A stretch of 64,000 nucleotides of DNA from an uncultured Pelagibacteraceae bacterium (GTDB lineage: Bacteria > Pseudomonadota > Alphaproteobacteria > Pelagibacterales > Pelagibacteraceae): positions 1-64,000 of the forward strand of contig CACIRD010000002.1 in assembly GCA_902588965.1 (NCBI GenBank). Direction: 5' to 3'. The notes beneath the pieces were generated by a model. It saw only the letters and a list, made by a program, of their open reading frames with translations, was not told the DNA's origin and ran no database searches. The position numbers and the translations under genes are program-made. Below, piece by piece: positions 5,044 to 32,595 of this stretch. The stretch's first letter is position 1; each line of letters opens with the position of its first letter.

Positions 5044-5948
5044 TGAAAAAAATTTTAGTCACAGGAGGTGCTGGTTTTATAGGAAGCCATCTTGTCGAAT
5101 TTTTGTCAAAAAAAAATCAAGTAACTGTAATTGACAATCTTTCGCATGGTAACAAAATAAAAAATATTAATAAAAATATAAAGATAATTAGAGGAGATGT
5201 AAGAGATAAAAGCTTAATTAATTATTACTCAAAAAACTGTTTTTCAATATTTCATTTGGCTGCTGTACTTGGTGTGGATGTAGTTTCAAAAAAAAATGTA
5301 GAAACCATGCAATGTGAATATGATGGTATCATGAATATTTGCAATGCAGCAAAAAAAAATAGTATTAAAAAAATTATTTACTCATCATCAAGTGGAGTGT
5401 ATGGGAAACTCGATTATAAGAATAATGTCAAAGAAAATGCAATTATTTCACCAGTCTCCGCTTATGCAATAGCAAAAAGATCTTGTGAAATTTATTTAAA
5501 GTACTTTCATATGGAGAATAAAATTAGTGCTATTGCACTCAGATTGTTTAATGTTTATGGACCAAGACAGGATGACAGAATGGTTATTCCTAGATTTATT
5601 GATCAGGCAAAAAAAAATAAGCCAATTACCGTTTATGGAAGTGGAAAGCAAACAAGAGATTTTACCTACATAGATGATTGTGTTAAAGTTTTTAATTTAA
5701 TTAACAATAAAATAAATGGCTTTCATATTTTAAATTCTTCTAAAGGCGCAGATATGAATATTAATAAATTAGCCGGTATAATAAAAAAAAATTTGAATTC
5801 CAAATCGAAAATTATTCACGTCAAGGTACCAAAGAATTTAGAGGAATTTCAAGTTATGAAAAGATCAGGAAATTCAAATAAATTATTAAAACTTATTGGG
5901 TATAAGCCTATTACTAATTTTGGAATTGGTTTAAAAAAAATAATATAG
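5043..5948 (+). CDS. NAD-dependent epimerase/dehydratase (extended SDR)
   Basis: VTGGAGFIGSHL, YAIAK, RLFNVYGPRQ. Confidence 0.85.
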   Translation: MKKILVTGGAGFIGSHLVEFLSKKNQVTVIDNLSHGNKIKNINKNIKIIRGDVRDKSLINYYSKNCFSIFHLAAVLGVDVVSKKNVETMQCEYDGIMNICNAAKKNSIKKIIYSSSSGVYGKLDYKNNVKENAIISPVSAYAIAKRSCEIYLKYFHMENKISAIALRLFNVYGPRQDDRMVIPRFIDQAKKNKPITVYGSGKQTRDFTYIDDCVKVFNLINNKINGFHILNSSKGADMNINKLAGIIKKNLNSKSKIIHVKVPKNLEEFQVMKRSGNSNKLLKLIGYKPITNFGIGLKKII

Positions 5949-6905
5949 TTATTCTATAAAACTAGAAAAAAATTTTTGTTGTTTTTTATACCAGTTGATT
6001 GTTTTAAGCAAACCATCATCAAATGAGAAAACTTTTTTTGATTTTATAAATCCCCTCATTTTTGCTGTTGAGGCCTTCATTCTTTTTATTTCCGTTTTTC
6101 TTTCTGGTAATCCACCGATAATTAACTTTGACTTTGAATAAGTTAATTTTTTTATTTTTTTTGCTAAGGATTTTATTGAAATTTCTGAACCATCCGAAAT
6201 GTTGACAATATTGTTAAATAATTTATCATTTTTAATAGCTTCAATAAAAAAATTTACAGAATTACCAACGTAATTAAAATCCCTAGTTTGAGATCCTTTT
6301 GTTATTTTTACAACTTCATTTTTTAAAAATTTTTCAATTAATTCAGGTATTACTGCTTTTGTGCTCTGCATTTCACCAAAGACGTTAAATGGTCTGAGAA
6401 TTTTAATTGGTTTTTTCATATGTTTCATATGCATTTGTGCATATAGTTCTCCTGAATATTTCCCAATTGAGTATGGTGAAATTGGGTGAGCTTTCATTTT
6501 TTCATAAAATATGGCCTTACTATCTTGATAACCATAAATTTCTGACGTTGAAATATAAATAAACTGTTTATATTTTTTTAAATTTTCTAATAAATTTGAC
6601 GTTCCAATAACGTTTGTTTCTAAAGCATCGTTATAATTCGAAAAACTACCTTTAACATCATTGTAGGCAGCTAAGTGAAATATAATTTTAGGATTAAAAT
6701 CATTTATTTTTTTAATTGAGCTTGAGTATCTTAAATCACATTCAATAACTTTAATTTTTTTCCAAATATCAAATAATCTAATATTTTCATAAATACTGTC
6801 ATATTTAGTAGTTATCGCAATTTCGTGGCCTTCTTTAATAAGTTTTTTAACCAAATGGGAGCCAATAAAACCCGAACCTCCAGTTACTAATATTTTTGAT
6901 CGCAT
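5949..6905 (-). CDS. NAD-dependent epimerase/dehydratase (extended SDR, sugar 4,6-dehydratase-like)
   Basis: VTGGSGFIGSHL, STSEIYG, YSIGK, RPFNVFG, GSQTRDF. Confidence 0.8.
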   Translation of the reverse strand: MRSKILVTGGSGFIGSHLVKKLIKEGHEIAITTKYDSIYENIRLFDIWKKIKVIECDLRYSSSIKKINDFNPKIIFHLAAYNDVKGSFSNYNDALETNVIGTSNLLENLKKYKQFIYISTSEIYGYQDSKAIFYEKMKAHPISPYSIGKYSGELYAQMHMKHMKKPIKILRPFNVFGEMQSTKAVIPELIEKFLKNEVVKITKGSQTRDFNYVGNSVNFFIEAIKNDKLFNNIVNISDGSEISIKSLAKKIKKLTYSKSKLIIGGLPERKTEIKRMKASTAKMRGFIKSKKVFSFDDGLLKTINWYKKQQKFFSSFIE

Positions 6906-6907
6906 AT

Positions 6908-7594
6908 TTATTTTATTGATCTTATTGTTTCAAATGCTTCAGCAGCAAATAAATTTACTGAATTTCCTCTGAATTTTATTTGATTTTCGATTGATTTTAT
7001 TGACAAAAAATTTGGATATGGTTTTAGCTCATCTTTATAAAATCTTTTTAAAATTTTTATCTTCTGTTTATAAGTTTTACTAATATCTACAAAAAAATTT
7101 GGATTAAAGGCTTTATTCTTATTTATTAATTTTTCAGTTGCTGAGGCAACCTCATAGGAGTAAATTTTTTTTAAAAATTTGTTAATTTTTGATGGTCTTG
7201 TTGCAATTAAAGTTGCTTCAGCGGTAGCTCTATGATCATGATGATTATCATCAATACAATGCATAAAAATAGTATTAGGTTTAAACTTAGTTATTTCTTC
7301 ATGTAATGATCTCGCCATCTGAGTTATATCCTGTCTTTTAAGTGATAAACCATTATAGTCCAAAAATATAGGAGTATCAATTTTAAGATATTTAGCAACC
7401 CTTACAGCTATAATCCTTCTTTCATTAAAATTTTTTGAATTTTTCCGGACACGTTTGTCGTAAGTTTTGCAAGTAAATAGAATTCTAATTTTATTTTTTT
7501 TTCTCAATTTTAAAATTGTACCTCCACATCCAATTATTTCATCATCAGGATGTGCGGCAATAATTAAGATCTTTGATTGTTTCATAGATAGCAA
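6908..7594 (-). CDS. PIG-L/LmbE family deacetylase
   Basis: AAHPDDEIIGCGGT motif and downstream HHDHRATAEA. Confidence 0.85.
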   Translation of the reverse strand: MLSMKQSKILIIAAHPDDEIIGCGGTILKLRKKNKIRILFTCKTYDKRVRKNSKNFNERRIIAVRVAKYLKIDTPIFLDYNGLSLKRQDITQMARSLHEEITKFKPNTIFMHCIDDNHHDHRATAEATLIATRPSKINKFLKKIYSYEVASATEKLINKNKAFNPNFFVDISKTYKQKIKILKRFYKDELKPYPNFLSIKSIENQIKFRGNSVNLFAAEAFETIRSIK

Positions 7595-7616
7595 TCTAAT
7601 ATTATTAATATACTCA

Positions 7617-8300
7617 TTACATTATAAATCTAGTTTTAATTTCGTGATAATCTCTTGGACTATCAAAAGTAAAGTATTTTTTATCTGTAATATTAATAAA
7701 TAATTTTTTATTTTTAGTAAGATTTTCCAAAAACTTAACCCATGTATTGTTTTTTTTAATATTAGAAACCAGATTTTTTTTAAAAAGAAAATAACCTAAA
7801 TTTATAGGTTCCTGAATTGTTGGTTTTTCTTTAAACTTTTTAATAATGTTTGTTTTTTTATTGTATGTCACAGTACCATATTTTATTTTATAATATGCTC
7901 CAATAACAAAAGCATATTTATTTTTAGTTTTAAAATCCTTTATATATTTATTTAAATTTATATTTACATATGTATCTCCATAACATACAAAAAAATCATT
8001 TTTAATATGTTTTGAACAATCCTTGAGTCTTTTAATTATATCAACATTACCAGAGTTGATTAATTTTATGTTTTTATTTTTTTTGAAATATTTATCTACA
8101 AATTTAGATATTTTATGAGATTTATAACCAGTAGCAATTATAATTTGATTGACGTTTATTCTTAAAAATTTTTTTATCATATAATATAAAAATGGTTTTT
8201 TATTTACTATTAATAAAGGTTTTGGAGTGCTAAAAGTGTGAGGCCTCAATCTTTGGCCCTTACCGCCACATAACAAAATTACGTCAACTTTTTTTTTCAT
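7617..8300 (-). CDS. Sugar-1-phosphate nucleotidyltransferase
   Basis: LLCGGKGQRLRPHTFSTPKPLL signature; YGDTYVN. Confidence 0.85.
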   Translation of the reverse strand: MKKKVDVILLCGGKGQRLRPHTFSTPKPLLIVNKKPFLYYMIKKFLRINVNQIIIATGYKSHKISKFVDKYFKKNKNIKLINSGNVDIIKRLKDCSKHIKNDFFVCYGDTYVNINLNKYIKDFKTKNKYAFVIGAYYKIKYGTVTYNKKTNIIKKFKEKPTIQEPINLGYFLFKKNLVSNIKKNNTWVKFLENLTKNKKLFINITDKKYFTFDSPRDYHEIKTRFIM

Positions 8301-14020: not shown

Positions 14021-14959
14021 ATGAATATACTTATTACAGGTGCATTAGGACATATAGGATCAGAACTAATAAATAAAATTTCACAGATAAAAAAATCAAA
14101 AAATGTTTATTTGATCGATTCTGCAAGATCAAACAATATAAATATTCTTTTTAATTTAAAAGTAAAAAATAAAAAAATATTTTTTTTTAATAAAGATTTA
14201 AACGATAAAAAAACATTAAGTTTAATAAAAAAAAAAATTGATATTGTAGTTCATTTAGCTTCTATAACTAATGCCGCAGAGTCTTTTAATATTAGGAATC
14301 TCATATATAAAAATAATTTTGAAATATTTAAAAATATTGTAAATTTTTGTATAAAAAAAAATGCAAAATTAATTCATTTATCAAGCACTAGTATTTATGG
14401 AAAACAATCATCTTTAGTCGATGAAAATTGCAGGTCTCTTAAACCCCAAAGTCCCTATGCAGATGTGAAATATTTAGAGGAAAAATTTTTAAAAAAAAAT
14501 AAAAAAAAAATAAACTATATTTCTTTAAGGTTGGGGACAATAACAGGAACATCAAAAGGAATGAGATTTCATACAGCTGTAAATAAATTTTGCTACAATA
14601 CCGTACTTGGTGATGTTATACCTATTTGGAATAATGCTCTAGATCAGTACAGACCATACCTTTCATTAAACGATGCCATTAAATCGATTATTTTCATTAT
14701 AAACAAAGATATTTTTGATCAAGAAATTTATAATGTTTTAACAAAAAATTATACCGTAAGGCAAATATTACAAATAATAAAAAAACAAAATTATAAAGTT
14801 AAAATAAAAAAAACGAACTCTCCAATTTTAAATCAAAATTCATACAAGGTAAGTAAAGAAAAATTTAGTAAATTTAAGATAAAATTTAAAAAAGATATAA
14901 ATATTGATATTGCAAATACACTTAAACTTTTCAAAGGTTTAAATAATAAAAAACTTTAA
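14021..14959 (+). CDS. NAD-dependent epimerase/dehydratase (extended SDR)
   Basis: ITGALGHIGSEL, LSSTSIYG, YADVK. Confidence 0.8.
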   Translation: MNILITGALGHIGSELINKISQIKKSKNVYLIDSARSNNINILFNLKVKNKKIFFFNKDLNDKKTLSLIKKKIDIVVHLASITNAAESFNIRNLIYKNNFEIFKNIVNFCIKKNAKLIHLSSTSIYGKQSSLVDENCRSLKPQSPYADVKYLEEKFLKKNKKKINYISLRLGTITGTSKGMRFHTAVNKFCYNTVLGDVIPIWNNALDQYRPYLSLNDAIKSIIFIINKDIFDQEIYNVLTKNYTVRQILQIIKKQNYKVKIKKTNSPILNQNSYKVSKEKFSKFKIKFKKDINIDIANTLKLFKGLNNKKL

Positions 14960-14980
14960 AGTCTTAAAAATGACTTTAAA
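14955..14980 (-). terminator. Candidate intrinsic terminator in the convergent stop-codon overlap
   Basis: TTTAAAGTC (14955-14963) / GACTTTAAA (14972-14980); on the minus strand followed by GTTTTTTATTATTT. Confidence 0.5.
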
Positions 14981-15750
14981 AATACCATAGAACATGCAAG
15001 CCCATAAATACGGTAAAATCTTTTAAACATATTTTTTTTATTAAATATCAACAAATATACAAAAAACATAAATGTATCCTTTATCAAGTAAATGATAGTT
15101 TCTTTTAAAGCATAAAGGTAGTTAAAATTTTTTCTGTAAAAATAAAACATTGACCACATATAATGCCAAGATCTTAAATTTTGAATTCTAATTGACTCAT
15201 TCTCTATAGATGACGCTCTAATATGTTTTATTTTTAAGTTTCCAATAAAAAAGGATTTCAAATTATTTTTTTTTAATCTATGTAATAAATCTATCTCTTC
15301 ATAATATAGAAAGAATTTTTCATCAAAAAAATCTACTTTTTTTAATTTATTTACATCAAATAACATCATAGATGCCTCACCATCGTATTTTTCAATAATT
15401 TTTTTTTTAAAATTAAGATTTCCATGATTTGGTACAAGAATTGTAAAATTTTTAACTTTTCTGGAAAATTGTATAAATTTTTTTATAAAATTATTTTTAA
15501 ATTTAACGTCTATATCGGAATATATTGCAAATTTCGTTTTACACTTTCTTAATGCTAAATTAATACCAGCTCCATTACCATTATTTTTAGATTTTAATAT
15601 TTTAGTTTTATTTGAAAATTTTATATCCTTCAAATTATTATTTTCAGAATTATTTACTATTAAAATTTTATTTTTATTACCTATCTTTTTTAAGAAATTT
15701 TGAAATTTTTTTTTATCAGGATTATAAGCAACTATAATAAAGGTAAACAT
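14956..15750 (-). CDS. Glycosyltransferase family 2 (rhamnosyltransferase-like)
   Basis: FIIVAYNPD, NNGNGAGINLALRKCKT, YSDIDVKF, FFLYYEEIDLLHRLKK. Confidence 0.8.
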   Translation of the reverse strand: MFTFIIVAYNPDKKKFQNFLKKIGNKNKILIVNNSENNNLKDIKFSNKTKILKSKNNGNGAGINLALRKCKTKFAIYSDIDVKFKNNFIKKFIQFSRKVKNFTILVPNHGNLNFKKKIIEKYDGEASMMLFDVNKLKKVDFFDEKFFLYYEEIDLLHRLKKNNLKSFFIGNLKIKHIRASSIENESIRIQNLRSWHYMWSMFYFYRKNFNYLYALKETIIYLIKDTFMFFVYLLIFNKKNMFKRFYRIYGLACSMVFLKSFLRL

Positions 15751-15755
15751 TCAAA

Positions 15756-16508
15756 TTATAATTTTGATAGTATTAATTTATTCTTTTTTAGAATTTTTTT
15801 TAATTTGCCTATACTTATAGAACTGTCTTTTGGGAAATTATTTATTTTTTTAAAATTAATTGATTTTATATTTTTATTCGCGAATTTTTTTGCAAATAAA
15901 AATATATCTCTTTTTTTCCCCCCTATGTTAAGAATCCCTTTTTTATTTATTATAAGCGGAATAATTTCAGCAACAATTCTGTTAAACAAAAAACTTGAAT
16001 ATGCACCTTTAATCGCTTTTTTGTGAACAAAAGGATAATCTGTCATGCTCAATCTTAAAATTAGAGAATTTTTGTATAAGTGGACAGAAGCTTCTCCTCC
16101 CAACTTTGACCATGCATAATTATTGACTGGCAAAAGAGGATCAGTTTCTTTGTAGTTTCCTTTTAAGCCTGGGTAAACGTAGTTAGTTGAAAAGTAAATT
16201 AATTTAATTTTATTTTTGTTACATAATTTAACGATGTTTGCAGTTCCAATTATGTTTAAATCAATACTAAGATTTATTTTTTTTTCATGAATATCCATTG
16301 GTCTTGAAAGTCCAGCAATATGCAGCAGATAATCAATTTTATTTCGTTTAACATAATTTTCCATTTGTTTAAAATTGAGTAAATTGAAGTTTTTTTTTGT
16401 TGTAAAATATGCCTTATAATTAGGAAGTTTATCTTTTAAAAAATAGCAAAATCGGCTTGTTTTTCCAGTTATTAAAATTTTTTTTTTTAGTTTAGATGAG
16501 TGAACCAT
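15756..16508 (-). CDS. RmlD-like sugar-nucleotide ketoreductase (SDR)
   Basis: ITGKTSRFCYFL, FSTNYVYPGLKGNYKETDPLLPVNNYAWSKLGGE. Confidence 0.75.
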   Translation of the reverse strand: MVHSSKLKKKILITGKTSRFCYFLKDKLPNYKAYFTTKKNFNLLNFKQMENYVKRNKIDYLLHIAGLSRPMDIHEKKINLSIDLNIIGTANIVKLCNKNKIKLIYFSTNYVYPGLKGNYKETDPLLPVNNYAWSKLGGEASVHLYKNSLILRLSMTDYPFVHKKAIKGAYSSFLFNRIVAEIIPLIINKKGILNIGGKKRDIFLFAKKFANKNIKSINFKKINNFPKDSSISIGKLKKILKKNKLILSKL

Positions 16509-17671
16509 TTGATATTTTTTTTATTCTTTTCCTTTTTCATAATTTCTTTCTTATGATTCCATGCAAATAAAAATACATTTTTATATGTCGAATTTTTGAA
16601 AGAATTATAACTTTTTATAGGTATGTGTGTGCCAGGTGATAATTTTCCAATTTTATCAGGAGTTGTGTCGAAGATGCAATCGATCATTTTTGAGTTAATT
16701 TTGCAATAATTGAGTATTGTTGTGCTTTTAGATGTTGCTCCATATCCACAAATTTTATTACCTTTTCTAATTATATTCTCTATTCTTTTTTTAAGTAAAA
16801 TTTTAGATCTTTGAACTTTTTTTTTGAAATTTAAACATCCTAAAAAGTTACTAATATTTTTTTTTCTTTCATTGATTAATAATTTTTTTAATCTTTCACT
16901 TTTTTTAGATATACTTTTTCTTTGTATAACATATCTCATTGAACCTCCGTGGGTTTCTAAAGGTACTGCGTCTATCAATTCAAATCCAAATGAATTATAA
17001 ATTTTATCAATAGATGTTAGTGAAAACATAAATATATGTTCATCATAGATTTGATCATAAGAAGTTTTTTTATACATTGAGCCTAAATATGGTTCTTCAA
17101 AAATTAAGTAACCATTTTTTTTTAATAATTTATCAATAGTTTTAATTAACTCAATTTGATTAGGTATATGACAAAAAACATTAGATCCAACTATTAGATC
17201 AAAATTTCCATAATTTTTTTTTAGAGAAGATATATTTTTTAAATTAAAAAATTTATTAATACTTTTAACCCCGTTTTTTTTTGCCACTTTATGAACACTA
17301 GCTGATGGTTCAAATCCATAGCTTTTTTTTTTGCTAAAATTTTTTAAAAAAGTACCGTCGTTTGATCCAATTTCAATTATTAAAGAATTGTTATTTAAAT
17401 ATTTTTTTTTTAACCATTTCGATAAATCTTTAAAATGATCTCTCATTTTTTTTGAACTTGATGTATAAAATGGATAGTTCCTATTAAACATTTTCTTTGG
17501 TTCTGGATTTTTTACTAATTGAAACAAACTCAACCTTTTATTAAAGGCAACTTTAAGCGGAAAAAAGTATTCTTTTTTAATTTCATTTTTTTTTATAAAT
17601 CCATTTGCTAGTGGCATTTTACCGAAGTCTAGAAATATTTTGCAGGATTTTTTATCAATTCTACACTTCAT
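16487..17671 (-). CDS. Sugar C-methyltransferase (TylCIII/EvaC/NovU-like)
   Basis: N-terminal MPLANGF, EIGSNDGTFL SAM motif, YDQIYDEHIFMFSLTS, THGGSMRY. Confidence 0.8.
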   Translation of the reverse strand: MKCRIDKKSCKIFLDFGKMPLANGFIKKNEIKKEYFFPLKVAFNKRLSLFQLVKNPEPKKMFNRNYPFYTSSSKKMRDHFKDLSKWLKKKYLNNNSLIIEIGSNDGTFLKNFSKKKSYGFEPSASVHKVAKKNGVKSINKFFNLKNISSLKKNYGNFDLIVGSNVFCHIPNQIELIKTIDKLLKKNGYLIFEEPYLGSMYKKTSYDQIYDEHIFMFSLTSIDKIYNSFGFELIDAVPLETHGGSMRYVIQRKSISKKSERLKKLLINERKKNISNFLGCLNFKKKVQRSKILLKKRIENIIRKGNKICGYGATSKSTTILNYCKINSKMIDCIFDTTPDKIGKLSPGTHIPIKSYNSFKNSTYKNVFLFAWNHKKEIMKKEKNKKNIKWFTHLN

Positions 17672-18069
17672 TACTTGATTTTGAAAAATTCTTTTTTTGA
17701 TTGAATATATTCTTTCTTGTCATACTTATAATCACATAATGTCAGTAATATACTGTTTTTTTTCTTAAATTTTAATCTTATCCAGTTTTTTTTAGGAACA
17801 AATAAATAATTGTTATTATTTTTACTTAAAGTGAAATTTTTATTTCTTTTCTTTAATGTGGTTATTTCGACTTTGATTTGACCAAATATTGGAATAAGAA
17901 TTTGATTACATTTTTTGTGAGCATGGTCAGCTCTAGAATATTTTGTATTACCATAAACGAAAAAAAATCTTTTGATACTAAAGCTACTTAAAGAACTTTT
18001 GAAATAAAACGGTATAAGACTTCCAGTATGGTCAGAAAAAGTTTTACTTTTTTTTTGTTGTAATTTCAT
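17671..18069 (-). CDS. FdtA/WxcM-like cupin (dTDP-4-keto-6-deoxyhexose 3,4-ketoisomerase-like)
   Basis: FFVYGNTKYSRADHAHKKCNQILIPIFGQIKV. Confidence 0.75.
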   Translation of the reverse strand: MKLQQKKSKTFSDHTGSLIPFYFKSSLSSFSIKRFFFVYGNTKYSRADHAHKKCNQILIPIFGQIKVEITTLKKRNKNFTLSKNNNNYLFVPKKNWIRLKFKKKNSILLTLCDYKYDKKEYIQSKKEFFKIK

Positions 18070-18140
18070 TTTTATTTAAATATTGTAATGTTAATATTTA
18101 ATTTGTTTAAAATCTGTATTTGATTTAATTAATTACCACA

Positions 18141-19373
18141 ATGAAAAACATTAGAAAAGAAATTAATAAGATACTTAATTTATATACAAAAAAAAAAGAA
18201 TTAAAAAAATTCCACTACCCTCTCTTAGATGATGCTTTTTCGAATGATGATATTATCAAAGCGATTGAAGTATTATTTAAAAAACAACTTACAATGGGAG
18301 ATATTACAAGACGATTTGAATATGAATTTGCCAAATATATGAAGAGCAAATATGCCTTAATGGTAAATTCTGGAAGTTCGGCAAATTTGTTAGCTGCTTT
18401 CGCTTTAGTAAATCCAAGAAAAAAAAATCATTTGAGGAAAAATGATGAGTTTATAATTCAGTCTTTATCTTGGTCTACTTCACTCTGGCCAATGATTCAA
18501 GCTGGTTTAAAGCCAAAGTTTGTAGATGTCACAATGAATAATTTTAATATTAATATTGAAAGTTTAAGAAGTAAGATATCAAGCAAAACCAAAGCAATTA
18601 TGCTAGTTCACGTTCTTGGATGTAGTTCTAATATCCAAGAAATTAAAATGCTTGCAAAAAAAAATAATATTTATTTAATCGAAGACACATGTGAGTCTTT
18701 AGGGGCAAAATTCAATAAAAAGTATTTAGGTACTTTCGGAGATTTTGGGACGTATTCATTTTATTATTCACATCAAATTACCTCAGCAGAGGGTGGTATG
18801 ATTATTTGTAATTCAAAAGAAGACTATGAAATAATTAATTCTCTGAGAGCTCATGGTTGGGATAGAGGAATTAATAAAAAAAATAATAAGTCATTTAATT
18901 TTATAAATTCAGGATTTAACGTTAGACCTCTTGATATAACTGCAGCTATTGGGCTAAACCAGTTTAAAAGATTAAATAAATTTAAATTAATAAGAAATCA
19001 AAATAGAACAAAAATTATTGAAGCTTTAAAAAATGCAAAATTTTGGAAAGATCAATTATCTTTTACTGAGTACGCAAAAAACCAAGATCCAAGCTGGTTT
19101 GGTTTGCCAATCTTGATTAATAAAAAATTTTTATATAAGAAAAAAAAATATTTAAAATATCTTAATAAATTAGGAATAGAAACTCGACCGATTTTAAGTG
19201 GTAATTTTATGAATCAGCCTAGCATAAAATTATTTAATTTAAATCCAACTAAAGAAAAATTTTATAATGCACAAGAAATAGATGAAAGAGGATTTTTTAT
19301 AGGTCTACATACAAAACCTTTATCAAACGAAAATTTAAATATTTTAGTGAGAAGTTTATTAACAATTAAATAA
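18141..19373 (+). CDS. DegT/DnrJ-family protein, ColD/DdhC-type sugar 3-dehydratase (His in place of PLP Lys)
   Basis: VNSGSSANLL, SWSTSLWP, YSFYYSHQITSAEGG (His where aminotransferases have Lys), RAHGWDR, NVRPLDITAAIG. Confidence 0.75.
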   Translation: MKNIRKEINKILNLYTKKKELKKFHYPLLDDAFSNDDIIKAIEVLFKKQLTMGDITRRFEYEFAKYMKSKYALMVNSGSSANLLAAFALVNPRKKNHLRKNDEFIIQSLSWSTSLWPMIQAGLKPKFVDVTMNNFNINIESLRSKISSKTKAIMLVHVLGCSSNIQEIKMLAKKNNIYLIEDTCESLGAKFNKKYLGTFGDFGTYSFYYSHQITSAEGGMIICNSKEDYEIINSLRAHGWDRGINKKNNKSFNFINSGFNVRPLDITAAIGLNQFKRLNKFKLIRNQNRTKIIEALKNAKFWKDQLSFTEYAKNQDPSWFGLPILINKKFLYKKKKYLKYLNKLGIETRPILSGNFMNQPSIKLFNLNPTKEKFYNAQEIDERGFFIGLHTKPLSNENLNILVRSLLTIK

Positions 19374-19385
19374 CACTAATTTTTA

Positions 19386-20567
19386 ATGATTCAAAAGAAA
19401 AAAAAATTATCTTTAATTACACTATCAAAAACACAGGGTGGTGCAAATATTGCTGCATCAAGAATAAGTAATATTTTAAAGAAAAATTTTGACTTACAAG
19501 TATTGCATCCTAAAAAAAATCTATTTTTTAGTATGATTAAATATTATTTGGCCAGACTATTTGTTAAATTTTATATTGGAAAAAGTAAATATTTAAATTC
19601 TTTAAACCTATTTTCTAGATTAAAATTATCGGAAATTAAAGGTGATATAATTCATTTAAACTGGATTGGGGAAGAAACTATTTCCATAGACGATCTTAAC
19701 AAAATTAAAAAACCAATTTTTTGGACTATGCATGACATGTGGCCAGTGACCTCAACGGAGCATTTTTTAGAAAATCCAAATCAAAACAAATATTTAAAAC
19801 AAAATACACAAAATAATTTTTTAAAAGATAAAGTTTTTCAAAAGAAAAAAATTTTTTTTTCTAAAAAAAATATTTTTATAATTACTAATAGCAAATGGTT
19901 AGAAAACTTTTGCAAAAAAAGTGATTTAACAAGAAAAGTAAAAGTTAAGACAATTTATAATCCAATAAAAACAGAAATTTGGAGAAAGTATGAAAAGAGC
20001 CTTAGTAAAAAAAAATTAAACTTGAACCCTCAAAAAAAATATATCCTTTTTGGAGCACACGGAGGTTTAAAAAATTTTAGAAAAGGTGGTGATCTTTTAA
20101 TAGATTCTTTAAATAACCTATCTGAACTAAAAAATAATCTTGAATTTTTAATTTTAGGGACGGATGAAAATTATACAAAAAAAATAAATAATTTTTACTT
20201 TAATTTTAGAAAATTTACTTTAAGCGAAAAAGATCAAATTCTTTATCATTCTTCCGCAGATATTACAGTAATACCATCAAGAGGTGAGTCCATACCTCAA
20301 TTTGCTGTTGAAACTATTTTATGCGAAAATGCTATAGCTGCTTTTGATATAGGTGGTTTTAGTGAAATAATTAAGCATAAGGTTAATGGTTATTTGGCAA
20401 AACCTTTTGATACAAAAGATTTTTCATATGGGATTAATATTTGTTTGGAAAAAATTAAGAAAAAAGAGCTTATTAAAAATAGAAATAAAATTATTAAAAA
20501 ATTTAATGAAAAAAAAATCAAAAAAGAGTATTTGAATTTTATTAAAAAAAATTCTTTTAAATCATGA
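19386..20567 (+). CDS. Glycosyltransferase group 1 (GT4-like)
   Basis: LITLSKTQGGANIAASRI, WTMHDMWPVT, FGAHGG, PSRGESIPQFAVETILCENAIAAFDIGGFSEII. Confidence 0.8.
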   Translation: MIQKKKKLSLITLSKTQGGANIAASRISNILKKNFDLQVLHPKKNLFFSMIKYYLARLFVKFYIGKSKYLNSLNLFSRLKLSEIKGDIIHLNWIGEETISIDDLNKIKKPIFWTMHDMWPVTSTEHFLENPNQNKYLKQNTQNNFLKDKVFQKKKIFFSKKNIFIITNSKWLENFCKKSDLTRKVKVKTIYNPIKTEIWRKYEKSLSKKKLNLNPQKKYILFGAHGGLKNFRKGGDLLIDSLNNLSELKNNLEFLILGTDENYTKKINNFYFNFRKFTLSEKDQILYHSSADITVIPSRGESIPQFAVETILCENAIAAFDIGGFSEIIKHKVNGYLAKPFDTKDFSYGINICLEKIKKKELIKNRNKIIKKFNEKKIKKEYLNFIKKNSFKS

Positions 20568-21252
20568 ACAATATAGTTTTTACATAAGGATTTATTAAAC
20601 ATTCTTCCAAACAAAGTTTTTTGATTTGCCAGATATTTGCCCAGACAAAATTTTCTTTTTTTGTAAGTTTGTTATTGGGATTTTTTAAGTAAACTAACCA
20701 GTTTTCATTTCTTTTTCTCCAAAATCTTGCTCCTTCTTCATTATGCGCAGATTTAGCAATTATCTTTCCCCCTTTATTCATGATAATTATTTCATACAAC
20801 TCTGTTCTTTTTCCACCATGCGCTCTGTTCATATTGGACTTTGTTGCTGAAAAAGTGGGGCAAAATTTTATATTCTTATCCCCAGGTTCTGAGCGTAAAT
20901 TTAAAAGAAATTCAATGCCATATTTTTTTGTTTCTCTAACTAAAAACGCTAATACTCCTCCGTGAGGCTGATTAAATATTAATTGATCCCAATTACTAAC
21001 CTCCCTTTTTGCATTTTTAGTTTTGACACCCACTACACTAAAAAATTGATTTGATTTATGGTAAATTCTACCTTTCTCAAGCTTCCAATCTTTCAGTTCT
21101 GATATTGAGCATAATCTCGATCTCATAGTTTCTTTTTTTTGTAAAATTTTTCTTTTTCGAATAAGTTTGCTTATACTTGTATTAGATGAATACTTATAAA
21201 TTTCAATTTTTTGTCTTAATAGTTCTAAGTTATTTTGATATTTTATTTTCAT
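20557..21252 (-). CDS. NDP-hexose 2,3-dehydratase family protein (single module, 231 aa)
   Basis: IYHKSNQFFSVVGVKT, WDQLIFNQPHGGVLAFLVRE, EPGDKNIKFCPTFSATKSNMNRAHGG are hallmark motifs of the EvaA/TylCVI family. Confidence 0.8.
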   Translation of the reverse strand: MKIKYQNNLELLRQKIEIYKYSSNTSISKLIRKRKILQKKETMRSRLCSISELKDWKLEKGRIYHKSNQFFSVVGVKTKNAKREVSNWDQLIFNQPHGGVLAFLVRETKKYGIEFLLNLRSEPGDKNIKFCPTFSATKSNMNRAHGGKRTELYEIIIMNKGGKIIAKSAHNEEGARFWRKRNENWLVYLKNPNNKLTKKENFVWANIWQIKKLCLEECLINPYVKTILFMI

Positions 21253-22181
21253 AATGTAGTTTTTGTATTATATAAAGTTTGTCTAAATTTTGAGTCTTCC
21301 TTAATTTGCTTGTGATAGTATGTTATATTTTTTTTTTTTAAAACTTTAAAAAATTCGTTAAAAAAATTTTTAAAAGTATCGTCTTTTTTGATCAAGAATT
21401 TTTTTAATTTATTTTTTTTTTTATATTCTACAACTAATTTTTCTCCCGCCGGCGGGGCGCTAAATCTATAAAGAGTTATAGAGTAAAATTTTGCTAAAAA
21501 TGTGATAGTGTTGCAATATTCAGAGTTATGTGAAAAAAGCCCATAAAACTCAGTTTTTTTGGTAGAGGTATTTACTGAAAAACTTTCATTCAAATTGTTG
21601 TTATTTTTCATGATTAATTTTTTATAAACTAACTTCGATTTTAAAAAATATCTATTTATAGATGCCGCATACGGCATCATATCATTAAAACAACCACCAC
21701 CCATTTTTTTTGATAATTTAAAATTGTTATTTTTAGGTTTTGGAATACAAAATTTCATTATTATTTTATCTAGATTTATTTTATTATCCTTAATCAACTT
21801 TTTAACCATATCAAACTGCTTATGATAACTAAATACAAGAGCTTGTGAAATTAACAGTTTCTTTTTTTTGGCTAAATTCAATAATTTGTATGATTGTTTT
21901 AAATTAAGTGAAAACGGCTTATCAATTATTACGTTTTTATTTTTTTTTAAGGCTTTTAAAGCATATTTATAATGCAAAGCATTTACTAATGAAATGTAAA
22001 CTATATTTGCGTTAGAAAGTTCAATACCTTTACTATAGTCTCTAAACCATTTCTCATGACCAGTTTTACGTTCTTTTTTCGATTTAGAGGCTATATCAAA
22101 TTTAATATTTTTGATTTTTGTAAATGCAGGAATTATCCTTCTTATAGCTAAATCTGAATATCCAAGTATTAATATTTTCAT
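21249..22181 (-). CDS. Gfo/Idh-family oxidoreductase, candidate NDP-hexose 3-ketoreductase
   Basis: GYSDLAIRRIIPAF, IDKPFSLN, MGGGCFNDMMPYAASINRYF; overlaps the 2,3-dehydratase gene by 4 nt. Confidence 0.75.
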   Translation of the reverse strand: MKILILGYSDLAIRRIIPAFTKIKNIKFDIASKSKKERKTGHEKWFRDYSKGIELSNANIVYISLVNALHYKYALKALKKNKNVIIDKPFSLNLKQSYKLLNLAKKKKLLISQALVFSYHKQFDMVKKLIKDNKINLDKIIMKFCIPKPKNNNFKLSKKMGGGCFNDMMPYAASINRYFLKSKLVYKKLIMKNNNNLNESFSVNTSTKKTEFYGLFSHNSEYCNTITFLAKFYSITLYRFSAPPAGEKLVVEYKKKNKLKKFLIKKDDTFKNFFNEFFKVLKKKNITYYHKQIKEDSKFRQTLYNTKTTL

Positions 22182-22253
22182 ACTAGTATTGCATTTAAAA
22201 AAATAAATTGTATGTAAGTCTATGTTTATAAGACTATAAGAAAAATATTTTTC

Positions 22254-23354
22254 ATGAAAGTAAAATTTACAAATTTATATAAGCTAATACCTGAAAAGGA
22301 AAAAATATTTTCAAAAATTCAAAATTTGATAAGAAATGCACAATTTGTAGGTGGAAAAAATCTGTTAGATTTTGAAAAAAAATTCGCTAATTTTGTTGGC
22401 TCAAAATACTGTGTTGGTCTAGGAAATGGAACCGATGCTCTTGAGATAGCTGTTCGGTCTCTTCATTTGAAAAAAAATAGTGAAATAATTGTTCCAGTAA
22501 ATACATGGATTTCAACTGCTGAAGCAGTTGTTAATAATGGTTTCAAGTTAGTTTTTTGTGATATAAATCTTGATGATTATACAATAAGCATTCAGGACCT
22601 AAAAAAAAAAATTAATTCAAATACAAGAGCGATAATGCCAGTGCATCTATATGGCAATCCCTCAAATATGAAAGATATAAAAAATATAATTAAAAATAAA
22701 AATATTAAAATAATTGAAGATTGTGCTCAAGCACATGGAGCAAAAATTAAAAATCAGCATGTTGGAACTATTGGTGAAATTGGAACTTTTAGTTTTTTTC
22801 CAGGAAAAAATTTAGGAGCTTTTGGGGACGGAGGAGCAATAGTAACAAATTCAAAAAAAATATATGAGTACGCTTTAAGAGCGAGAGGTCATGGATCAAA
22901 AAAAAAATATGACCATAAATTTCCTGGGAGAAATTCGAGACTCGATTCTATTCATAGCGCAGTATTAAATATTAAACTTAAAAATTATAAATCTGTTATA
23001 AGAAAAAGAAATAAATTAGCTAATATTTACTTTAAAAAATTAAAACTTATAAAAGAAATATCTTTATTCCGTCTTAACAAAAATTGTAGTTATGCATTTC
23101 ATCAATTTGTAATTAGAGTTGATAAAAATAGAGATAACTTAATAAAGTATTTAAAAAAAAATAAAATTGATACAATGATTCACTACCCTTATATGCTAAA
23201 TGAACTTAAATTCTTTCCAAAAGGAAATAATTTAAAAAATAGCAAAAATCTTGGAAAAAAAATAATTAGTTTACCTATCTCAGAGGAGCATACTGAGAGA
23301 GAAATTAACTATGTATCAAAGAAAATAGAAGAATTTTTTAAAAAAAAAATTTAA
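22254..23354 (+). CDS. DegT/DnrJ/EryC1 sugar aminotransferase (intact PLP Lys)
   Basis: GLGNGTDAL, EDCAQAHGA, SFFPGKNLGAFGDGGAI, RARGHGSKKKYDHKFPGRNSRLDSIHSAVL. Confidence 0.88.
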   Translation: MKVKFTNLYKLIPEKEKIFSKIQNLIRNAQFVGGKNLLDFEKKFANFVGSKYCVGLGNGTDALEIAVRSLHLKKNSEIIVPVNTWISTAEAVVNNGFKLVFCDINLDDYTISIQDLKKKINSNTRAIMPVHLYGNPSNMKDIKNIIKNKNIKIIEDCAQAHGAKIKNQHVGTIGEIGTFSFFPGKNLGAFGDGGAIVTNSKKIYEYALRARGHGSKKKYDHKFPGRNSRLDSIHSAVLNIKLKNYKSVIRKRNKLANIYFKKLKLIKEISLFRLNKNCSYAFHQFVIRVDKNRDNLIKYLKKNKIDTMIHYPYMLNELKFFPKGNNLKNSKNLGKKIISLPISEEHTEREINYVSKKIEEFFKKKI

Positions 23355-23361
23355 TTATCAA

Positions 23362-24312
23362 ATGAAAAAAATTTTAATTACTGGAAGTTCTGGTTTTATA
23401 GGTTTTCATTTAGCAAAAAATTTATCAAAAATATACAAGGTAATTGGTTTAGATAACCATAATAACTATTATTCCAAAAAAATAAAAAAAAAAAGGTTAA
23501 GTATTTTAAAAAAAAATGAAAATTTTTCTTTTAAAAAAATTGATTTAAAAAATAAAAATGAATTAGAAAAAGTCTTTAACAAATTTAAACCTTCAATTGT
23601 TTTCCACATTGCTGGACAGCCGGGTGTTTTATATTCTTTTAAGAATCCAAAAAGTTATAAGCTAAATAATACACGGACTACTGATATAGTAAGTAATTTA
23701 TGTAAAAAAAATAATATAGAAAAGTTTATATTTGCATCCTCAAGCTCAGTTTATGGTGATCAGAAGAAATTCCCCATAAAGGAACATTTTAAAGTTAATC
23801 CAAAAAATCCTTATGCGAAGACAAAGATTGAGTCCGAAAAGATTATTTTTAAAAATTTAAAAAAAAGTAAAACAGATTTTTTAATTTTTAGATTTTTCAC
23901 TGTTTACGGGTCTTTTGGAAGACCGGATATGTTTATACATAAATTTTTAAACTCTATTAAAAATAAAAAAACAATAAAACTTCATAATAAAGGTATGAAT
24001 TTTAGAGATTTTACATACATAGATGATGTTGTGAGTATTTTAAAAATGTCGATCAATAAAAAAATTAGTAAAAAAATTTTAAATATTTGTAGATCTAAAC
24101 CAATACTCACTTTAGATTTGGTAAAAATGATTTTAAAAATCTATGGTGTTAAAAAGGCTAATTTAAGAGAGACTAAATTTGTTAAGGGTGAAATGTTAAA
24201 AACACACGGGAGTAATAAGAATTTAAGAAAATATTTTGGCAAAATTAAATTTACAGATATAAAAAAAGGAATTAAATATACCATTAAAAATTATAAACTA
24301 CATAAAATGTAA
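23362..24312 (+). CDS. UDP-glucuronate 4-epimerase-like extended SDR
   Basis: ITGSSGFIGFHLA, GQPGVLYSFKNP, SSSSVYG, RFFTVYGSFGRPDMF. Confidence 0.8.
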   Translation: MKKILITGSSGFIGFHLAKNLSKIYKVIGLDNHNNYYSKKIKKKRLSILKKNENFSFKKIDLKNKNELEKVFNKFKPSIVFHIAGQPGVLYSFKNPKSYKLNNTRTTDIVSNLCKKNNIEKFIFASSSSVYGDQKKFPIKEHFKVNPKNPYAKTKIESEKIIFKNLKKSKTDFLIFRFFTVYGSFGRPDMFIHKFLNSIKNKKTIKLHNKGMNFRDFTYIDDVVSILKMSINKKISKKILNICRSKPILTLDLVKMILKIYGVKKANLRETKFVKGEMLKTHGSNKNLRKYFGKIKFTDIKKGIKYTIKNYKLHKM

Positions 24313-24843
24313 ATGATTAATATTAACCTCAAAAAATTAAAAAAGCCTTTAAAAATAAAACAGAAAATATTTTTTGATAAAAGAGGTTATTTTCAGGAAC
24401 TATGTTTAAAAAAAAAATTTAAATTAAATATAAGATTTACTGCAATAGCTAGTTCGAAAAAAAATGTTATTAGAGGGTTTCATTTTCAGTTAAAAGATAA
24501 GCAAACGAAGTTAATTTATGTTGCTGAGGGAAAAATTTTAGACATCGTAGTAAATTTAAAAAAAAAATCCAAAGAATTCGGCAAAGTATCTAGATTTATA
24601 TTAAATAAAGGAGATATGTTATTTATTCCGGATTTTTATGCACACGGTTATGAATGTTTAACACCAAAATGTTCAGTTATTTATCATTTAGAAAAATATA
24701 GAAATGCTAAATACGAAAGTGGAATAAAATATAATGATAAAAAACTTAAAATAAAATGGTCTACCAAAAAACCAATTCTATCCTTAAGAGACAGATCTCA
24801 TATAAGTTTTAATGAATTTAAAACTAAATATAAAACACTTTAA
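24313..24843 (+). CDS. rmlC: dTDP-4-dehydrorhamnose 3,5-epimerase family protein
   Basis: FFDKRGYFQEL, VIRGFHFQ, KLIYVAEGKILDIVVNLKKKSKEFGK, FIPDFYAHGYECL. Confidence 0.85.
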   Translation: MININLKKLKKPLKIKQKIFFDKRGYFQELCLKKKFKLNIRFTAIASSKKNVIRGFHFQLKDKQTKLIYVAEGKILDIVVNLKKKSKEFGKVSRFILNKGDMLFIPDFYAHGYECLTPKCSVIYHLEKYRNAKYESGIKYNDKKLKIKWSTKKPILSLRDRSHISFNEFKTKYKTL

Positions 24844-26732: not shown

Positions 26733-28403
26733 ATGGAATTTATTAAATTTATCTTAATTTACTTTTTTTTGACTCTCTCCATAATTGGATATGGATTAAT
26801 TTTTTCTCTCAAGCTAACCAAATATAACAATTTTTATAAATCTAACATATCAGTCGGATATGTAGGAATTTTTGGGGTTTTTTTCTTAATTTTAATATCT
26901 TATCTTACAAATCTTTTTTTCCCTCACAGTAATCTGCATAACCTTTTAGTTTTAATTATTGGAATTTTTTTTTTCCTATTTTTCTTTTTTTTGAATAAAA
27001 TTAAATTTGAATTAAGATACTTTTTTCTAGCTTATTTACTATCATTTTTTGCAATTTTTTATTTTAAAAGTCACGATGATTTTTCTTATTATCATCTAAG
27101 TTTTATTAATAATCTTGTTTTGAACAAAACAGAATTCGGCGTAGGCCAGTTTGATCCAGCTTTTAACCATGTCTCATCCCTATTTTATTTTCACTCTTTA
27201 TTTAAAACCTTTATTACTAAAGACTTTTTCTATCAGATAGGTCAATTAGGTATTATAATTTTTGTTAATACAATTTTATTTGAAAATATCTTCAATAGTG
27301 CAAAATCAAAAAAGCTAGATTTAATATTTTTTTTATCTATTTTTTGCGTAATATTTACTAATATTTTTTTTTATAGGTTAGCTGAACACGGTACAGACAG
27401 ATCAGCACAAATATTGTTTTTTTTATCATTTATATTAATAATTGAATTAATCGACTCCAAAAAATTATTAAAGCAAAATTTTGAAATACTATTAATAATT
27501 TTTACTTTAATTATATCTATAAAATCTTTTTATATATTATACTCAGTTTTATTTTTTTATATTTACTTTAAATATTTTAAAGCATCTCAATTTTTGGAAT
27601 TTTGTAAAAACTTTAAGATTCTATACTTTTGTTCCTTAGTTTTTTTACTTACTTTATTTTATAATATTTCTCACTCAGGCTGTTTACTTTACCCAGTTAA
27701 ATTTACATGCCCTGATATTTTCTTTTGGGGACTAGGAAAAGAAAAAGTTTTACATTATATGACCTGGTATGAATTATGGTCTAAAGCAGGAGCCACGCCA
27801 ACATATAGAGTGGAAAATGTAGGAGAGTATCTGTCCGGGCTTAATTGGCTACCAATCTGGATGGAAAACTATTTTTTTAACAAAATGTCAGACTATTTAT
27901 TGGGCATTCTGTTAGCAATAATAATAGTTTTACTTTTTTTTAAGCCCATAAATTTTAAATTTAAAAACTTTAAAAACTATTTTCCAGTTTATTTTTTAAT
28001 ATTCCTTCTTTTTTTAGAATGGTTTTTGAGACATCCCAGTCTAAGATATGGAGGTTATATAATAATTTTTTTACTTTTAACCTTTCCAATTTCACTTCTT
28101 TTGACTAGTCAAAACTTTTCTTTTAAAAATAAAAAAAATTCTATAATTATAATTTTTTTAATATGTTTAGTTATATTTGCTGGAAGAAATGTAAATAGGC
28201 TTTTCAAAGAAAATCATGTTTATAAATATAATCTCTTAAAAAATCCTTACTATCGTATGGATGATAATTTTTTTTATATGCAAAAAAGTAAACTTAAACT
28301 TTTTAAAGATAAGGATAAATGTTACGAAGATAATTCTCTGTCATATATTAAATGTAGGAAAATTGGAAATTATAGATTTTATTACTCTTCAAAAAAAAAT
28401 TAA
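26733..28403 (+). CDS. Polytopic membrane protein (candidate glycan polymerase/transferase)
   Basis: Many predicted TM helices; located after WecA-like gene. Confidence 0.5.
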   Translation: MEFIKFILIYFFLTLSIIGYGLIFSLKLTKYNNFYKSNISVGYVGIFGVFFLILISYLTNLFFPHSNLHNLLVLIIGIFFFLFFFFLNKIKFELRYFFLAYLLSFFAIFYFKSHDDFSYYHLSFINNLVLNKTEFGVGQFDPAFNHVSSLFYFHSLFKTFITKDFFYQIGQLGIIIFVNTILFENIFNSAKSKKLDLIFFLSIFCVIFTNIFFYRLAEHGTDRSAQILFFLSFILIIELIDSKKLLKQNFEILLIIFTLIISIKSFYILYSVLFFYIYFKYFKASQFLEFCKNFKILYFCSLVFLLTLFYNISHSGCLLYPVKFTCPDIFFWGLGKEKVLHYMTWYELWSKAGATPTYRVENVGEYLSGLNWLPIWMENYFFNKMSDYLLGILLAIIIVLLFFKPINFKFKNFKNYFPVYFLIFLLFLEWFLRHPSLRYGGYIIIFLLLTFPISLLLTSQNFSFKNKKNSIIIIFLICLVIFAGRNVNRLFKENHVYKYNLLKNPYYRMDDNFFYMQKSKLKLFKDKDKCYEDNSLSYIKCRKIGNYRFYYSSKKN

Positions 28404-30620: not shown

Positions 30621-31664
30621 ATGAAAAAAACTGCACTTATATTTGGTATTACAGGACAAGATGGTTCATATCTTGCTGAACTTCTTATTAAAAAAAATTA
30701 TATTGTACACGGAATCAAAAGAAGATCTTCATCAATTAATACTGGAAGAATTGATCATATTTATCAAGATCCACATATAAAAAAAAGGAATTTTATTTTA
30801 CACTATGGTGACATCACCGACTCTCTTTCTGTTACAAGATTAATAAATCAGATTAAACCAAACGAGGTTTATAATTTAGCTGCACAATCACATGTTCAAG
30901 TTTCTTTTGAGTCACCCGAATATACAGCTAATGCTGATGGGCTTGGTGCTTTAAGAATATTAGAAGCCATAAGATTTAATAAATTAGAAAAAAAAACAAA
31001 ATTTTATCAAGCAGGCACTTCTGAGTTATATGGTTTAAATGAAAAAACACCACAAAATGAAAAAACACCTTTTCACCCAGCAAGTCCATATGGAGTTGCG
31101 AAACTTTATGCACATTGGGTTACTATAAACTATAGAGAAGCTTATGATATGTATGCATGTAATGGTATCTTATTTAATCACGAAAGCCCAAGAAGAGGTG
31201 AAACTTTTGTTACACAAAAAATTGTTCAGGCATTATGTAGGATAAAATTAAAAAAACAGAAAACCCTTTATTTAGGTAATTTATACTCAAAAAGAGATTG
31301 GGGGCACGCAAAAGATTATGTTTTAGCTATGTGGTTAATGCTACAACAAAAAACCCCCCAAGATTTTGTAATAGCTACAGGACATCAAGCGAGTGTTAAA
31401 AGTTTTATAAATTTAGTATCGAAAAAACTTGAAATTAAAATTTCTTGGAAAGGCAAAGGAATAAATGAAAAGGCTGTCGATGAAAATGGTGTGGTAGTAG
31501 TGGCATGTGATAAAGCCTATTATAGACCCTTAGAAGTAAATAATTTACTAGGTGACGCAAAAAAAGCAAAAAAATTATTAAAATGGAAACCAAAGTATAA
31601 TTTAAATGATTTAGTAGATGAAATGATTTCTGAAGAATTAAAATTAATTTTAAATGATAAGTAA
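30621..31664 (+). CDS. gmd: GDP-mannose 4,6-dehydratase
   Basis: [82 protein letters not shown]. Confidence 0.97.
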
Positions 31665-32595
31665 AAATTCAAAAATCTATATCGCTGGTCATAATGGAAT
31701 GGTCGGTTCAGCTATAACGCGAAAATTAAAACAAAAAGGATTTAAAAACCTAATTTTTAAGGATAAAAATCAACTAGACTTAGTTGACCAAAAAAAAACT
31801 TTTCAATTTTTAAAACGTAATAAACCAGAATTTGTTATATTAGCGGCTGCTAGAGTTGGCGGTATAGTTGCCAATTCAAAATATAAAGATAAATTTTTAT
31901 ATGAAAATCTGCAAATTCAAAATAATATAATTCACGGATCATACCAAGCAGGAGTCAAAAATTTATTTTTTTTAGGCTCTAGTTGCATATATCCAAAATT
32001 CTGTAAACAGCCAATGAAGGAAAAATATTTATTAACTGGATCATTGGAAGAAAGTAATGATGCATATGCAATTGCTAAAATAGCTGGTTTAAAGATGTGT
32101 CAATATTATACTGATATGCTCAACTTAAACTATAAAAGTTTAATGCCACCAAACCTCTATGGACCAAATGATAATTTTGACCTTAATAATTCACATTTTT
32201 ATCCTGCATTATTAAAAAAAATTTACTACTCAAAGATAAATAACAAAAAAATTTTAAATATTTGGGGTACAGGAAAAGCTAAAAGGGAGCTTATGTTTGT
32301 TGAAGATTTTGCCGACTCGATAATTTTTTTTATGAATAAAAAAATTAAAGAACCATTTATCAACATAGGAATAGGTAAGGACTATCCCATTAAATGGTAT
32401 GCAAAATTTTTAATGAAAAAAATGAGTGTTAAACTTAAAATAAAATATGATAAATCAAAACCGGATGGTATGCCAAAAAAATGCCTAGATATTGGATTAG
32501 CTAAGAAATATGGATGGAAACCAAAAAATGATTTTGGCAAAGCTTTCGATATAACCTTTAATTATTTTTTAAAAAACAAAAAAAAATTTAAATAA
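31654..32595 (+). CDS. fcl: GDP-L-fucose synthase
   Basis: [51 protein letters not shown]. Confidence 0.95.

Follow-up and report, generated by a model that had tools for sequence, protein, structure and literature searches.

A SAR11 surface-polysaccharide island in which antibiotic-type deoxysugar genes probably belong to separate, interleaved nucleotide-sugar cassettes

Do antibiotic-type deoxysugar genes that lie side by side in a marine bacterial genome form one pathway or several? The question is raised by a stretch of 64,000 nucleotides from an uncultured Pelagibacteraceae bacterium (GenBank assembly GCA_902588965.1, contig CACIRD010000002.1, positions 1 to 64,000), here called the window, in which the EvaA-E families known from epivancosamine biosynthesis are all encoded between 15756 and 24843. 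The genome measures 1.14 Mb and is 96% complete. A preliminary description had proposed a single EvaA-E or mycarose-type pathway, made up of a nucleoside diphosphate (NDP)-hexose 2,3-dehydratase, a Gfo/Idh oxidoreductase, a sugar C-methyltransferase (CMT), a DegT aminotransferase, RmlC and an RmlD-like reductase. The window proteins were searched against Pfam, NCBIfam and PDB sequences, and the scores in bits were compared with curated cut-offs. All gene calls were confirmed, and the six families were all recovered, by Pfam and PDB matches, where they had been placed. They do not, however, appear to make up one evolutionary or functional EvaA-E unit, since the CMT, DegT and RmlD-like proteins fall with homologues from FdtA-linked, dehydratase-free islands. 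We consider it fairly probable that the window belongs to a SAR11 surface-polysaccharide island made up of interleaved but independent nucleotide-sugar cassettes, and that the genes in question split into separate cassettes.

Linkage and phylogenetic grouping were determined computationally, as were the families, the retained catalytic residues and the presence of rmlA and rmlB. Neighbourhoods were taken as 20-kb stretches around two query families, the dehydratase and the window CMT, in a single, evenly drawn sample of 397 genomes of the order; many of these genomes are incomplete and some islands are cut by contig ends. The dehydratase set comprised 26 islands, 25 from other genomes of the order plus the Pelagibacter locus L081. 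CMTs of this family are widespread in the order, being encoded in 229 of 397 genomes. The proteins closest to the window CMT (16487..17671, minus strand; PF08484, 136 bits, and PF08421), at 50-70% identity, came mostly from genomes without the dehydratase. Around these CMTs we found a conserved SAR11 module, referred to as module A, which consists of RmlC, FdtA, a short-chain dehydrogenase/reductase (SDR) of the type encoded at 14021, the CMT, the RmlD-like reductase and DegT. FdtA and this SDR occurred together in all 20 FdtA-bearing CMT islands, a dehydratase in none of the 20, and neither FdtA nor the SDR in any of the 26 dehydratase islands; the two sets were picked by different queries, and the mutual exclusion holds for these samples.

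The trees gave the same picture. With TcaB9 as the sole outside sequence (EvaC, NovU and TylCIII proteins were left out), the dehydratase-linked CMTs formed one cluster (support 92/67) within a group (100/100) that also holds the second CMT of this genome, on contig C3. The window CMT was placed outside that cluster, beside the one of locus L116, and CMTs adjoining 2,3-dehydratases were only 39-44% identical to it; it is thus not of the SAR11 dehydratase-linked clade expected of a mycarose-type set. The window DegT grouped with five FdtA-linked sequences (100/100), and the RmlD-like protein with those of L116 and L119 (100/99). A single EvaA-E pathway, first suggested by the recurrence of dehydratase, CMT, RmlC and RmlD-like genes, was abandoned once the closest relatives of the window CMT had been located in dehydratase-free, FdtA-bearing islands. 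As a separate observation, the second CMT of this genome lies in locus L153 (G000:C3:107400-127300) near GT17 and Gfo/Idh genes and without a dehydratase, and groups with the dehydratase-linked CMTs.

Two loci display the parts of the window in isolation. In the sister island L116, both arms of module A, RmlC-SDR-DegT and SDR-FdtA-CMT-RmlD-GT2, are present at 50-72% identity, and no dehydratase, Gfo/Idh or ColD gene was found in the island; a glycosyltransferase (GT)-family protein of 404 amino acids and a 314-amino-acid gene take the place of the window's ColD, GT4, dehydratase and Gfo/Idh genes. L081, from another Pelagibacter, carries a Gfo/Idh gene and a dehydratase gene (66% and 78% identical at the protein level) with the same 4-bp overlap, and no FdtA, CMT, RmlC, RmlD-like or DegT gene near the pair. 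In the genomes G253 and G314, the dehydratase cassette and a module-A-type CMT are encoded at separate places. On the simplest reading, the dehydratase-ketoreductase pair would have been added between the arms of an older FdtA-type module.

The same loci make one combined pathway to dTDP-L-epivancosamine (EvaA-E logic; dTDP, thymidine diphosphate) or to a mycarose-type sugar unlikely. In its amino branch, DegT would add an amino group to the dehydratase product, 3,4-diketo-2,6-dideoxyglucose, which would then undergo C-methylation, epimerisation by RmlC and reduction by the RmlD-like protein; in its mycarose branch, the dehydratase product would be reduced by the Gfo/Idh protein and then methylated. 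Such a pathway would account for the clustering, within 9 kb, of all five activities of the Eva route with the 3-ketoreductase of mycarose biosynthesis, and it is in line with the retained catalytic glutamates of the dehydratase, with TcaB9 and 5t64 as the best matches of the window CMT and with the complete sets of both kinds in other SAR11 islands. Against it speak the clustering of the window CMT, DegT and RmlD-like proteins with FdtA-linked homologues from dehydratase-free islands, and the occurrence of module A without the dehydratase pair in L116 and of the pair without module A in L081.

Several points nevertheless weigh against separate cassettes. The modules are interleaved, with the dehydratase pair 72 bp from the divergent DegT gene, and could have merged into one pathway in this lineage. 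In L069 and L073, the dehydratases, relatives of the window protein, directly abut a DegT gene, though one of another clade; this arrangement is expected if DegT aminates the dehydratase product. Among solved structures the window CMT matches TcaB9 best, and TcaB9 works in a pathway that uses a 2,3-dehydratase. The C4 oxidation by the SDR at 14021 is a presumed role, and the linkage tables depend on sampling 20-kb neighbourhoods around two query families. Neutral loss, mis-assembly of single islands and further cassette types may also contribute to the pattern.

The gene content of module A agrees with the alternative that the preliminary description itself had offered, an FdtA/FdtB route plus unrelated genes, since both an FdtA-like ketoisomerase and a QdtB-like DegT are present. 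The FdtA-like gene (17671..18069, minus strand; PF05523, 86 bits) lies directly upstream of the CMT gene and encodes a cupin with the HxH motif of this family, here HAHK; the HxH motif has a catalytic role in FdtA. Its PDB matches were 4zu4, 7n67 and chains of WlaRA, QdtA and FdtA, and the predicted activity is that of a 3,4-ketoisomerase. The CMT matched TcaB9 (3ndi, 273 bits), 5t64 (270 bits) and the D-mycarose 3-C-methyltransferase 4rv9 (176 bits). Overlapping the CMT gene is that of the RmlD-like protein, a 4-ketoreductase candidate (15756..16508, minus strand; PF04321, 80 bits), which is followed by a GT2 glycosyltransferase gene (14956..15750, minus strand; PF00535), whose homologue in L116 (57% identity) likewise lies downstream of these genes, and by the extended SDR gene, a candidate C4 oxidoreductase or epimerase (14021..14959, plus strand; PF01370, 104 bits). 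The other arm contains DegT (22254..23354, plus strand; PF01041, 331 bits), a Lys-type, QdtB-like sugar 3-aminotransferase which keeps the lysine for pyridoxal phosphate (PLP) and matched 7b0d, 7n63, 5u1z and QdtB (3frk). A second SDR gene of the epimerase/dehydratase family (23362..24312, plus strand; PF01370, 172 bits) travels with DegT and RmlC and has a 64% homologue between these two genes in L116. The RmlC-like dTDP-4-keto-sugar epimerase (24313..24843, plus strand; PF00908, 132 bits; TIGR01221, 126.5 bits, below the cut-off of 155.75) is the sole PF00908 protein of the genome.

For module A we infer the order of steps, the role of the SDR, the methylation site and the product as follows. 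Starting from dTDP-4-keto-6-deoxyglucose, supplied by RmlA and RmlB encoded elsewhere in the genome, FdtA would shift the keto group to C3 and DegT would then aminate C3. The SDR at 14021 probably re-oxidises C4, upon which the CMT would add a C-methyl group next to the C4 ketone by TcaB9-type chemistry; finally, RmlC would epimerise C5 and the RmlD-like protein would reduce C4. The predicted product is a 3-amino-3,6-dideoxy-C-methylhexose in which the 2-hydroxyl group is kept. This exact product is less certain than the split into cassettes. A possible but less probable course is that module A serves two sugars which are not linked, FdtA and DegT making a 3-amino-3,6-dideoxyhexose and CMT, RmlC and the RmlD-like protein a C-methyl-6-deoxy-L-hexose, with the dehydratase pair again separate. 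Since RmlC, CMT and RmlD-like genes occur without FdtA, the SDR of the 14021 type and DegT in eight islands (L133, L134, L136-L139, L143 and L144), this triad can work alone. In L124, L127, L128, L130, L132 and L135, by contrast, FdtA, SDR, CMT, RmlD-like and DegT genes are adjacent in one consistent order, which suggests one product.

The second cassette, module B, consists of the dehydratase gene and a Gfo/Idh gene (21249..22181, minus strand; PF01408), which overlap by 4 bp. The best PDB match of the Gfo/Idh protein was the sugar 3-ketoreductase 3rbv (E 9e-17), and the tyrosine aligned to the Y-to-F site of 3rbv/3rc7 is conserved. These data support its earlier designation as a 3-ketoreductase candidate, and a putative 3-ketoreductase beside the dehydratase, as in a mycarose-type set, is therefore present. 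The two enzymes would turn the same precursor into dTDP-4-keto-2,6-dideoxyglucose, which one of the SDRs of the island would reduce to a separate 2,6-dideoxyhexose.

Can a dehydratase of this size be active? The gene (20557..21252, minus strand; PF03559, 142.6 bits, cut-off 25) encodes a protein of 231 amino acids with one domain in place of the EvaA-style tandem pair of Nudix-like domains, and EvaA was its only match among PDB sequences (E 9.9e-31). In EvaA, which has two domains, the active site is pocket A, with E139 and E190, and pocket B has been described as an inactive leftover of a duplication (PMC8987622). The window protein fitted the first half of EvaA better than the second (69 vs 40 bits), and in the alignments its E122 and E172 take the positions of E139 and E190. 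Both residues are invariant in 14 aligned single-domain proteins, and the alignment of single-domain dehydratases has 23 invariant columns. An AlphaFold2 model, computed from 14 single-domain sequences, had a pLDDT (predicted local distance difference test) of 87.7 and was matched by Foldseek to EvaA first (E 5e-12) and to Nudix hydrolases next. In the dehydratase tree, the single-domain proteins were separated from the N-terminal halves of two-domain enzymes, though several branches were long and the deepest fork had modest support (80/88).

Since EvaA-type enzymes are two-domain proteins, half-length genes could be decay products, and the window protein would then be a non-catalytic remnant. 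We regard this as very improbable: both catalytic glutamates are kept in 18 single-domain proteins (the window protein and 17 relatives) and in 12 N-terminal halves, as opposed to none of 11 C-terminal halves, and the 23 invariant columns, the intact overlapping genes on both sides and the location of single-domain genes next to ketoreductase, aminotransferase or RmlC partners, IMG/VR contigs included, likewise argue for function. In view of the same overlapping neighbours and of the 17 further single-domain genes, we rejected the idea that a two-domain gene has been split or truncated here. A broken two-domain gene was observed at L059 (G200:C2:81361-82580), where a first part of 256 amino acids is followed by a TAA within the second match; this break may be a pseudogene, a reversion to a single domain or a sequencing error.

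PF03559 is rare in the samples surveyed. It was detected in 26 of the 397 genomes of the order and in three others, one of them below the cut-off, in a sample of 289 genomes of the class, and in no further genome of a 399-genome sample of the phylum; a scan of genome contigs with the window dehydratase alone found just one relative. The closest relative (78% identity) is from a record titled uncultured Candidatus Pelagibacter, in agreement with the SAR11 affiliation given before. On the plasmids searched, almost every relative came from Streptomyces or another actinomycete, and there was no match in 50,697 phage records. In IMG/VR, single-domain dehydratases adjoin aminotransferase, ketoreductase or RmlC genes, so the form with its partner genes is not a SAR11 peculiarity. 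These IMG/VR loci (L156-L171) are 16 contigs classed as viral, as labelled there, on which genes for 2,3-dehydratases, mostly of the single-domain form, lie beside DegT, Gfo/Idh, RmlC or CMT genes. In the open-licence literature, we found no paper on a hexose 2,3-dehydratase in Proteobacteria and nothing relevant on Pelagibacter deoxysugars, SAR11 O-antigen or rhamnose, or vancosamine in O-antigen.

With regard to the precursor, the absence of rmlA and rmlB noted in the preliminary description applies to the window but is a limit of the window. On another contig (C1:118091-119983), an rmlA homologue (354 bits, just missing the cut-off of 361) and rmlB (402 bits, above its cut-off) are adjacent, and neither rmlC nor rmlD adjoins the pair. 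Thus, dTDP-4-keto-6-deoxyglucose should be available, and the island and rmlAB are complementary. The surrounding locus L049 (G000:C1:110000-128000), the rmlA-rmlB-GT2-apt-mtnP-mtnA spot, also contains an aldo/keto reductase, a GT17 and a DUF4422 gene, and no sugar cassette is found there in this genome, whose cassettes lie instead in the island on contig 2. At this type of spot, other SAR11 genomes have inserted cassettes of the mycarose/vancosamine or the FdtA type; in many of them either type occupies one chromosomal place, beside rmlA-rmlB-GT2-apt-mtnP. Since either type can stand at this one place and neither does so here, these results suggest that SAR11 sugar cassettes are exchangeable.

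Genuine antibiotic-type sets do occur in other SAR11 islands, and to that extent the earlier proposal that SAR11 surface islands encode such sugar genes stands. In 23 of the 26 dehydratase islands a Gfo/Idh gene lies at most 2.5 kb from the dehydratase gene, mostly overlapping or abutting it, and in the other three (L056, L058 and L060) a DegT gene lies 17-18 bp away instead; all SAR11 2,3-dehydratases found are thus near a 3-ketoreductase or an aminotransferase gene. The dehydratase gene directly abuts a CMT gene in 15 islands, usually together with RmlC and RmlD-like genes, so that the families do recur side by side, if not with the window's version of the CMT. L056 shows the collinear run DegT, dehydratase, CMT, RmlC and RmlD-like, and L061-L065 contain dehydratase, ketoreductase, CMT, RmlC and RmlD-like genes with rmlA and rmlB next door. 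Judged by gene content, these are epivancosamine-type and mycarose-type sets, respectively, with predicted products. The three DegT-type islands are split from the seven two-domain ketoreductase-type islands in the dehydratase tree and in that of the CMTs alike, which is the pattern to be expected of cassettes that evolve as whole units, each for an amino or a non-amino sugar.

A third set of genes, module C, had gone unmentioned. Its first gene (18141..19373, plus strand) encodes a ColD-type NDP-4-keto-6-deoxyhexose 3-dehydratase, which matched ColD (2gms) with 286 bits and the Fe-S enzyme E1 with 199 bits. In ColD, a histidine replaces the catalytic lysine and the [2Fe-2S] cysteines are absent (PMC8987622); aligned to 2gms, the window protein likewise has a histidine for the PLP lysine, in the motif SFYYSHQITSAEGG, and no such cysteines. 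Further along are gmd for GDP-mannose 4,6-dehydratase (GDP, guanosine diphosphate; 30621..31664, plus strand; TIGR01472, 550 bits, cut-off 415), which would provide the precursor, and a gene for a GDP-fucose-synthase-like epimerase/reductase in an Fcl or ColC role (31654..32595, plus strand; NF047922, 382 bits, below the cut-off of 500). The presence of all three in one island points to a colitose-type sugar, and Gmd, ColD and the Fcl-like protein would lead to a GDP-colitose-type 3,6-dideoxyhexose. Along with the ColD-type enzyme, the FdtA-like ketoisomerase had been missed or left unresolved before, and so had the fact that the 2,3-dehydratase has a single domain. Between the ColD-type and 2,3-dehydratase genes lies a GT4-type glycosyltransferase gene (19386..20567, plus strand; PF00534), a 53% homologue of which adjoins DegT in L121. 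Elsewhere in the window, a run of consecutive genes (5043-8300) for two LegB-like SDRs, a PIG-L deacetylase and a nucleotidyltransferase forms another nucleotide-sugar set of the island, and a 556-amino-acid protein (26733-28403) scored 70.7 bits against the LIC_10190 membrane protein family, below the cut-off of 100.

SAR11 bacteria count among the ocean's most abundant cells, and their surface sugars are largely unknown; surface glycans, in turn, commonly decide phage binding. Antibiotic-sugar-type cassettes give concrete predictions of SAR11 glycan composition, and the linkage of the dehydratase to a ketoreductase or an aminotransferase predicts a mycarose- or a vancosamine-type product for each genome. 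In our view, two side results outweigh the claim from which we started, namely the mycarose- and epivancosamine-type sets elsewhere in SAR11 and the one-domain dehydratase with the EvaA glutamates. One-domain dehydratases are a natural test of whether the second domain of EvaA is dispensable, as is implied by the published view of pocket B as an inactive duplication leftover (PMC8987622). Only tentatively do we put forward the whole of a competent one-domain dehydratase, either a pre-duplication EvaA unit or a streamlined form, an FdtA/SDR route to a 3-amino-3-C-methyl-6-deoxyhexose, and cassette swapping at a fixed rmlAB spot which would vary the SAR11 surface. To our knowledge, 3-amino-3-C-methyl-6-deoxyhexose, the 2-hydroxy counterpart of vancosamine, is known from no glycan.

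Compared with known systems, the dehydratase shares the PF03559 fold and both catalytic glutamates with EvaA of Amycolatopsis orientalis (4j7g), but has one domain instead of two and an overlapping Gfo/Idh ketoreductase gene. The aminotransferase, CMT, RmlC-like and RmlD-like genes of the island resemble the EvaA-E pathway, as does the collinear set of L056, whereas the window's partner genes are of FdtA-linked lineage. The mycarose pathway (TylX3, TylCIII), with 2,3-dehydratase, 3-ketoreductase, CMT, epimerase and 4-ketoreductase, has its counterpart, complete with rmlAB, in L061-L065, and the window differs from it in a CMT outside the dehydratase-linked clade. That CMT has its best solved relatives in the sugar 3-C-methyltransferases TcaB9 and 5t64, with which it shares identical DQIYDEH and CHIP motifs, but it stands in a surface glycan setting and its substrate probably carries a 2-hydroxyl group. 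With the FdtA/FdtB, QdtA/QdtB and WlaRA pathways, the SAR11 module has the HAHK ketoisomerase and the QdtB-like aminotransferase in common, and it differs by the added SDR and CMT. The GDP-L-colitose pathway (gmd, ColD, ColC) is matched by gmd, a His-type ColD without Fe-S cysteines and an Fcl-like gene in one island, although ColD lies 11 kb from gmd/fcl and the Fcl-like protein is indistinguishable from fucose synthase. Finally, a TylCIII-type CMT has been proposed to act in a Gram-negative surface glycan in the case of virenose in Coxiella burnetii lipopolysaccharide (PMC3539893), which resembles the SAR11 island in this use of a CMT, the proposed virenose route being one without a 2,3-dehydratase.

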